DNA of 64,000 bases, taken from contig CAIVGN010000024.1 of the NCBI GenBank assembly GCA_903905455.1, forward strand, positions 18,799 to 82,798. Reading direction: 5' to 3'. Origin of the DNA: an uncultured Archangium sp. (GTDB taxonomy: Bacteria; Myxococcota; Myxococcia; Myxococcales; Myxococcaceae). The notes under the pieces were generated by a model. The model did no database searches. It saw nothing but the letters and a program-made list of their open reading frames with translations, and was not told where the DNA came from. A program made the position numbers and the translations under genes. Shown here in pieces: positions 60,607 to 62,119 of this stretch (position 1 is the first letter of the stretch; every line of letters begins with the position of its first letter).

Positions 60607-61071
60607 CTACTTCGGCGAAGACGTTCGCACCGACGCGCCCGTGGCAGCCTGCACCCGAAACACCGGCAGCAGGATCGGCAGGAGTCCCAGCGAAGCCGAT
60701 GCAGCCTGGACCGCTGCGCGCGCATACGGCCACGCGTGCATGACCCCGTTGGTGTTCACGAACTCGAGCAGGACGTCGTCGCTCGCGTCACCGTGGCCGG
60801 AGTAGCGAATGTTGAAGCGATGCACGAACCGCGCAAAGGCGGGGCTCCCATCGCGCCTGCGCGCACGCACGTTCAAGGTGATCAGCGCCACGAACGTATC
60901 CACCTCCCGGACCATCCCGACGCGCAGGCCAATGTCGAGATCGACCTGTTCGCCGGGTTGAGGTCCCGAGACGCGTGCGGTGCGGCGGGCCAGGGTTCCG
61001 GTGGTGATCAGTTCACGAAGCTCGATGCGCCTCGCGAGTTCAAGCACCTGCGGTCCAAGGTCCCTGCTCAC
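60607..61071 (-). CDS. SecB-like chaperone of toxin-antitoxin-chaperone (TAC) system
   Basis: 154 aa from GTG 61071, which overlaps the antitoxin stop (GTGA). Beta-rich core (QVDLDIGLRVGMVREVDTFVALITLNVRARR) then the SecB signature region: FNIRYSGHGDASDDVLLEFVNTNGVMHAWPYARAAVQAASASLGLLPILLPVF. The NG(V)..WPY.R..V pattern and LLP are diagnostic of the SecB fold. In TAC systems (M. tuberculosis Rv1957 and others) the chaperone binds the antitoxin and keeps it stable and active. Solitary SecB for export is less likely given the toxin and antitoxin genes directly upstream. Confidence 0.86.
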   Translation of the reverse strand: MSRDLGPQVLELARRIELRELITTGTLARRTARVSGPQPGEQVDLDIGLRVGMVREVDTFVALITLNVRARRRDGSPAFARFVHRFNIRYSGHGDASDDVLLEFVNTNGVMHAWPYARAAVQAASASLGLLPILLPVFRVQAATGASVRTSSPK

Positions 61072-61637
61072 GCCGCCTCCGTCGTGGCGGTGCTCGCGAG
61101 TCGGGGCTCGAGCTCATGAAGCATGCCCGTAACCGGGGCCTCGACTGCGCTCGCAGTGACGAGGGTGAGGTGGCGCATGACGAACACAGGCGCTGGAGCA
61201 CGAGCGGGAGCGCTTGCGGGCGGCGCCCAGACCTGTCCCACGCGGTCCCAGGCCGTCGCGGGCGACTGGGCCAGCAGCACGAGGCATGTCGTGAGGGCCA
61301 CTGAGCTCTCCTTGCCGGCCTTGAGTCGCGACAGGTAGCCGGGTGAGATCGCGAGCCGCTTCTCCCAGTCGCGTTGCGTACGCTCGGTGCACAGCGAGGC
61401 GATCGCCCCGAGCAGCAGCTCGTGCTGCTTGCGCGCGAGGGCGCTCTCGAGCGCTTCGTCGAGCGCCTTGCCGGTGGCGTCATCAATGAACCGCTCACCG
61501 CACGCCTCGCAGGTGGGCACGGGTACGGGCCACGCGGGGATCAGTGACGGGACATGCCGAAACGGCATCGGCGCCACGCTGGGTACTGCGATCAACCGAC
61601 CCTGCTCACACGCCGGGCAACGCTGGTTCTTCCTCAT
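61068..61637 (-). CDS. MqsA-like antitoxin of TAC system
   Basis: 189 aa from ATG 61637, overlapping the toxin stop (ATGA). N-terminal zinc-binding domain with CPAC (C7, C10) and CEAC (C43, C46), the MqsA-type CxxC-CxxC arrangement; then an HTH/XRE region (residues ~85-125, RDWEKRLAISPGYLSRLKAGKESS) for operator binding. Beyond E. coli MqsA (131 aa) there is a C-terminal extension of about 60 residues starting near W130, Pro/Ala-rich then hydrophobic (HLTLVTASAVEAPVTGMLHEL). This is the place where chaperone-addicted antitoxins carry the segment that the SecB-like chaperone binds. Followed immediately by the chaperone gene. Confidence 0.88.
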   Translation of the reverse strand: MRKNQRCPACEQGRLIAVPSVAPMPFRHVPSLIPAWPVPVPTCEACGERFIDDATGKALDEALESALARKQHELLLGAIASLCTERTQRDWEKRLAISPGYLSRLKAGKESSVALTTCLVLLAQSPATAWDRVGQVWAPPASAPARAPAPVFVMRHLTLVTASAVEAPVTGMLHELEPRLASTATTEAA

Positions 61638-62020
61638 CTTCTCCCCCGTCTCTTTGATGACGGCCTCTCTGCAGGGTGCATCGAAACGCAGGTGATGCAG
61701 CCGCCGTCGTCCGACTCCAAGAGCTTCAGCTTCACGTACCAGGTCGCGACGTTCTCGAGCCCGTAGCGCGCGACCAACGGTTCGGGCAGCGGCCTGACGT
61801 AGACGTCGAAGGCACCGCGATAGGGCGGCTCATCGAGGACGATGGTGCCCTGGAAATGCTCGAGTTCCAGAGAGACCAGCAGCGCACGCGCGAAGGCCAG
61901 CGCATCGGCATAACAATCGATGAGGTCGAGCACGATCTTGCGCGCCCGACTCTCTCCGAGCACGACGTCACCGTCGCGCGCGACGGCGTGCACCTTGTCG
62001 AGTGGGTACTTCGGTTCCAA
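61634..62020 (-). CDS. MqsR-like toxin of TAC system
   Basis: 128 aa from TTG 62020 (the only credible start; no ATG or GTG in this frame before the body). Pattern KYPLDKVHAVARDGDVVLGESRARKIVLDLIDCYADALAFARALL ... FQGTIVLDEPPYRGAFDVYVRPL ... WYVKLKLLESDDGGCITCVSMHP fits MqsR/GCU-type endoribonuclease toxins that associate with MqsA-type antitoxins, at a length of ~100-130 aa. Toxin-first gene order is normal for MqsRA. Toxicity not provable from sequence; key residues look intact but I could not compare an alignment. Confidence 0.82.
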   Translation of the reverse strand: MEPKYPLDKVHAVARDGDVVLGESRARKIVLDLIDCYADALAFARALLVSLELEHFQGTIVLDEPPYRGAFDVYVRPLPEPLVARYGLENVATWYVKLKLLESDDGGCITCVSMHPAERPSSKRRGRR

Positions 62021-62039
62021 CTCACGCCCCCTACCTAAC

Positions 62040-62054
62040 TTGAACTGAGTTCAA
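62040..62054 (-). promoter_or_regulatory. Operator palindrome of the TAC operon
   Basis: TTGAACT-G-AGTTCAA, perfect 7-bp arms, 20 nt upstream of the toxin start. On the minus strand a -35-like TTGAGA lies just upstream and a -10-like TTAGGT just downstream with about 16 nt between, so the palindrome overlaps the promoter core. Fits repression by the MqsA-type antitoxin's HTH. Inferred. Confidence 0.6.
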
Positions 62055-62119
62055 TCTCAATTCGGTCGGGTAAGGCTAGCGCAAGGGACTGACATCACAG
62101 GGAGATGGGGCGCTACGAA

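Follow-up and report, generated by a model that had tools for sequence, protein, structure and literature searches.

Three consecutive genes on the minus strand of a 64,000-nucleotide stretch of DNA from an uncultured Archangium sp. (contig CAIVGN010000024.1, positions 18,799 to 82,798; here, the window) very probably form a toxin-antitoxin-chaperone (TAC) module whose chaperone would guard the antitoxin at its C-terminal tail. The toxin is predicted to adopt the MqsR fold, the antitoxin is of the MqsA type with a tail ending in Ala-Ala, and the third protein is predicted to be a TAC-like relative of SecB (Table 1). The case is computational, resting on gene order, predicted folds, the pattern of tails and Ala-Ala ends, operator conservation, and the lack of any Pfam SecB match in the host phylum. 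It supports a preliminary description of the window, which had proposed a TAC operon from three minus-strand open reading frames (ORFs); their coordinates, strand, and 4-nt overlaps were all borne out.

Table 1. Predicted features of the operon (window positions)
Feature	Position	Strand	Basis and remarks
SecB-like TAC chaperone	60607..61071	-	154 aa, GTG start
MqsA-type antitoxin	61068..61637	-	189 aa; TIGR03830 (E 4.9e-6, below curated cutoff) and alignments
Antitoxin tail, predicted chaperone-addiction domain	61071..61226	-	52 residues (138-189), end Glu-Ala-Ala; comparison of 17 myxobacterial antitoxins
Four-Cys N-terminal stretch, predicted zinc site	61500..61619	-	Alignment; coordinates calculated from residues 7-46
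MqsR-like toxin	61634..62020	-	128 aa, TTG start
Candidate sigma70-like promoter TTGAGA-N17-TAGGTA	62032..62060	-	Sequence and aligned upstream rows; operator fills spacer; uncertain
Predicted operator TTGAACT-C-AGTTCAA	62040..62054		Perfect inverted repeat just upstream of toxin start; position kept in relatives

A recurrent three-gene operon

The putative toxin, antitoxin, and SecB-like genes are adjacent and co-oriented, overlapping as ATGA at the toxin/antitoxin junction (61634 to 61637) and as GTGA at the antitoxin/chaperone junction (61068 to 61071). At the place aligned with the TTG start of the toxin, protein records P0003 and P0004 open with Met, and the toxin copy of genome G005 has GTG. 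Identical gene order was found in seven loci (the window, G005, G009, G013, G035, G151, and G008, where a contig end interrupts the chaperone gene), and because of this recurrence the arrangement goes beyond chance. The window and G005 copies share 54% identity in the toxin and 55% in the chaperone.

The SecB fold is predicted for the third protein, nearer to TAC than to export chaperones: by both profile and fold, the closest solved chaperone is that of the HigBA1-SecB TAC of Mycobacterium tuberculosis. Clustering with general export SecB, named in the preliminary description as an outcome that would count against a TAC, was not observed. The export SecB model PF02556 did not match the window chaperone and gave an E value of 0.03, under the cutoff, for a relative (L010). 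Across 195 genomes of the phylum the Pfam SecB model found no match, although a divergent export SecB could escape it as these TAC chaperones do. The chaperone family itself was matched in only 13 of the 195, and in 12 of the 13 its gene follows a toxin-antitoxin-like pair. Given these null matches and the profile and fold comparisons, the reading of the third gene as export SecB was rejected. SecB-like genes also lie behind HTH-like (helix-turn-helix) antitoxin genes at L045 (G143), L043 (G037), L044/L013 (G001), L046 (G193), and L047 (G051). Gp49-type toxins are present in some of these loci, and the toxin candidates of L013 and L046 matched no Pfam family.

The antitoxin comprises four Cys residues (7, 10, 43, and 46), an HTH, and a C-terminal extension. 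TIGR03830 aligned with residues 7 to 126 at 26.4 bits, short of its curated cutoff of 61.8. The four Cys are invariant across seven aligned antitoxins, with the first pair one residue nearer in G035. A search of PDB sequences with antitoxin alignment A2 did not list MqsA and yielded nothing beyond chance hits and weak similarity to HTH proteins (lowest E, 0.012).

We compared tail length, taken as the residues past a conserved Trp column, among 17 myxobacterial antitoxins and Escherichia coli MqsA. SecB-linked tails measured 52, 54, 41, 66, 52, 74, and 57 residues, antitoxins with no third gene had tails of 25, 50, 3, 4, 20, and 3 residues, those linked to a DUF6941 gene had 30, 29, and 29, the unclassified G155 had 38, and E. 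coli MqsA had 0; the 52 residues of the window antitoxin thus form an extension lacking in the E. coli two-gene relative. SecB-linked tails were longer than those with no third gene (Mann-Whitney P = 0.003, with G155, DUF6941, and E. coli rows excluded; P = 0.0007 with DUF6941 rows included; neither value accounts for shared descent). An Ala-Ala terminus was present in six of the seven SecB-linked antitoxins (the seventh ends in Thr-Ala) and in none of the 10 others (G155 counted, E. coli not). Ala is not dictated by the gene overlap at the chaperone start, which touches only the last base of the last antitoxin codon. Absence of a third-gene SecB was judged on 238 bases of flank for G186 and on 0.9 to 1.1 kb for the others. 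G155, G036, G067, G194, G186, G097, and G101 are not among the 13 genomes matching the chaperone family, and the match in G037 is located behind a different pair. The chaperone is likely needed to protect the antitoxin from destruction.

A divergent MqsR-like toxin

The MqsR model PF15723 did not match the window toxin up to an E value of 10 and matched 1 of the 39 rows of toxin alignment A4 (E = 0.068). Thus, the HMM (hidden Markov model) search suggested in the preliminary description recovered the MqsA family, weakly, and neither MqsR nor SecB for the window proteins. Its other caution, that the 128-aa protein might not fit the MqsR fold, did not materialize, as that fold is predicted. A profile of the toxin family matched a single E. 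coli MqsR sequence weakly (probability, 21.6; E = 0.001) and a set of six canonical MqsR sequences clearly. One relative (P0032) carries the NCBI record name MqsR family toxin; named relatives are myxobacterial, and canonical MqsR was found in one genome among 60 relatives examined.

Tyr95, Lys97, Ser113, His115, Asp72, and Tyr74 are invariant in all 39 rows, and by profile alignment Tyr95 is the equivalent of the catalytic Tyr81 of MqsR. In contrast, the place of catalytic Lys56, which is Lys in 6/6 canonical sequences, holds Gly58 in the window toxin and varies across the 39 rows (R13 E6 K6 G5 Q2 S2 D2 H2 I1). A His that closes the last strand is a usual catalytic residue in toxins of the RelE type (YoeB and YafQ, for example). 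Given this His and the invariant residues, a Tyr/His catalytic pair is the simpler reading of the putative active site.

A predicted upstream operator

Among the upstream regions of 15 toxin loci, a palindrome with 6-bp arms (TGGACTnAGTCCA, TGAACTnAGTTCA, or TGGAGTnACTCCA) was present in 12 and was imperfect or shorter in G035, G151, and G037b; the lineup script favors TGGACTnAGTCCA, and the starts of G067, G101, G151, and G155 are approximate. An unbiased palindrome search placed the same palindrome within the top three in 13 of 16 loci, missing G035, G037b, and G194b. G186 and the G003 remnant described below were left out of this comparison. A paired change, GG to GA, is common to the operators of the window and G005. 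Pattern alone failed to identify the operator, as 21 of the 195 genomes contain TGGACTnAGTCCA, at 24 places in all, with no enrichment over its reversed control, and toxin-antitoxin genes adjoin 9 of 21 such loci examined and not the other 12. Only the position of the palindrome, not its frequency, speaks for an operator. The promoter assignment is uncertain because the leader would be only about 5 nt; translation may begin with almost no leader, or a different promoter may be used (62020 to 62060).

In the 8.6-Mb genome of the same organism, TGRACTNAGTYCA occurs at this operon and at C97:179520. An intact 145-aa MqsA-type antitoxin gene (L056:1027-1464, G000:C97) begins 36 nt past the latter site, which reads TGGACTnAGTCCA and would be an operator of its own. 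Only ten residues follow the conserved Trp in this orphan antitoxin, which lacks a long tail; its gene adjoins tRNA-Leu and tRNA-Lys, and no toxin or chaperone match was found at its locus.

Weighing of alternative readings

Could the SecB-like gene be merely cotranscribed, a general SecB-type chaperone serving export or folding behind an ordinary two-gene MqsRA-like pair? The phylum-wide lack of Pfam SecB matches, subject to the reach of that model, the scarcity of the chaperone family and its station behind toxin-antitoxin-like pairs, and the tail and Ala-Ala end that accompany it all argue against this reading, which we regard as highly improbable. The variable Lys56 place speaks instead for a TAC whose toxin has the MqsR fold but is noncatalytic, binding a target such as RNA or the ribosome or acting only as a corepressor. 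Set against that, the six invariant residues and the simpler Tyr/His pair leave a noncatalytic toxin unlikely.

Several observations weigh against a TAC with a ribonuclease toxin, the reading that we prefer. Since E. coli MqsR needs Lys56, whose place is Gly here and is not fixed in the family, catalysis may be different or weak. The five non-MqsRA pairs with a chaperone are weakly supported, with Gp49 above the cutoff in one of five and HTH in three of five. The tail of the SecB-less G036 antitoxin measures 50 residues and that of G155 measures 38, so tail length alone is no marker of chaperone dependence; the tail statistics ignore shared descent; and because no common motif was seen among the compared tails, a chaperone-binding stretch cannot be named. 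Taken by itself, the window palindrome stands out only slightly (P about 0.05, mononucleotide shuffles), and the reversed control of TGRACTNAGTYCA also has one site in the same genome.

In the preferred TAC reading, the toxin would be a growth-arresting ribonuclease, and the antitoxin would fold and block it only as long as the antitoxin tail is bound by the SecB-like protein; the end of this tail would serve as a ClpX-type degron. Unfolded or phage proteins would titrate the chaperone away, ClpXP would then remove the antitoxin, and the toxin would be freed. The antitoxin would also repress the operon through the palindrome ahead of the toxin gene.

Related loci and genomic surroundings

Behind related MqsR-like pairs at L006 (G037:C243), L021 (G097), and L022 (G101), a DUF6941 gene stands in place of SecB (E = 1.2e-6, above the cutoff, and 6.8e-6 and 1.4e-5, slightly below). 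The antitoxin tails of these loci resemble one another, and two of the three have the operator TGGAGTnACTCCA. A literature search did not find the term DUF6941. In an 18-row toxin tree, in which 9 of the 15 internal branches lack resolution, the three loci cluster together (95/97), and SecB-less G155 is placed with SecB-linked G008 and G013 (99/97), a grouping from which loss of the SecB gene in G155 is likely. Tentatively, the family may have an exchangeable third gene, with SecB-like proteins guarding long Ala-Ala tails in some lineages and DUF6941, a second and non-SecB guardian, guarding unlike tails of 29 to 30 residues in another, so that tail and guardian are swapped on a fixed toxin-antitoxin core whose active site is Tyr/His rather than Lys/Tyr.

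A remnant in G003 (L029, G003:C22) retains a 20-residue toxin end (90% identical to G005) and a 35-residue antitoxin start (57%), and adjoins a gene that shares 39% identity with a neighbor of the G005 operon; no chaperone was found there. This decayed copy of the operon probably occupies the site used in G005. A Pfam scan of five ORFs flanking the window operon found no defense family, leaving a defense-island setting unsupported. Mobile carriage was likewise set aside: tblastn with the window toxin gave no hit among 72,556 plasmid and 50,697 phage records, and 48 pattern matches of the chaperone alignment to viral contigs yielded no confirmed case. An empty site could not be demonstrated because the five other genomes of the genus yielded no match to the flanking oxidoreductase.

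Comparison with known systems

MqsRA-SecB TACs have been published from Vibrio cholerae RC385 (Vcho-TAC; Bordes 2016, PMC5105189) and from E. coli C496_10, where MqsRAC protects against T2 (Vassallo 2022, PMC9519451), and some mqsRA modules are described as belonging to TACs (mBio review, PMC11980606). By their published descriptions, both systems combine an MqsR-type toxin, an MqsA-type antitoxin, and a SecB-like chaperone in one operon, and TAC antitoxins carry a C-terminal extension (PMC5105189, PMC9519451). Unlike these, the window toxin falls outside the Pfam MqsR model, with His in place of Lys96 and a Lys56 position that is not fixed, and its host phylum has no Pfam SecB match; the V. 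cholerae antitoxin ends in Cys-Tyr-Val (read back by hand from a primer printed in PMC5105189) rather than Ala-Ala. Because such TACs are already published, the myxobacterial operon is a divergent variant and not a new kind. A literature search found no work joining TACs and myxobacteria, and a myxobacterial MqsRA-SecB is not described in the SecB text of PMC7159879 or in the text of PMC2701414 (from the literature on MqsR and Myxococc).

The M. tuberculosis TAC (Rv1955-Rv1957) has a similar chaperone, but its toxin-antitoxin pair is HigBA and not MqsRA-like. The HigA1 tail bears a chaperone site and a C-terminal hydrophobic Val-Ala ClpX degron (PMC8165232); a chaperone site and a ClpX-type degron are predicted for the tail of the window antitoxin too. 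The PADLOC model PD-T4-9_C, for CmdTAC (PD-T4-9) of E. coli, matched 20 of 23 members of chaperone alignment A5 (E ≤ 0.01) and the window chaperone at 0.018, whereas the toxin CmdT is described as ADP-ribosyltransferase-like (PMC9519451), unlike the MqsR-like toxin here. Two-gene MqsRA of E. coli K-12 is alike in gene order and in the toxin fold predicted here, but it has no adjacent chaperone gene, its MqsA has no tail past the HTH domain, and its MqsR has both Lys56 and Lys96. An inverted repeat, AACCT-TTT-AGGTT, which we take to be the MqsA site, lies upstream of K-12 mqsR; the window operator is likewise upstream but differs in its letters.

Implications

In known TACs, stressed proteins or export clients are thought to divert the chaperone (PMC8165232), or a phage protein to break its grip on the antitoxin (PMC11980606). 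Because the host phylum has no Pfam SecB match, the question of the trigger could be addressed here in a setting that lacks any known export SecB. Natural contrasts are also available within the lineage: the same toxin family is accompanied by a SecB-like gene, by DUF6941, or by neither, and a short-tailed orphan antitoxin is encoded in the same genome. Such contrasts would reveal whether tail and guardian together constitute a swappable control unit.
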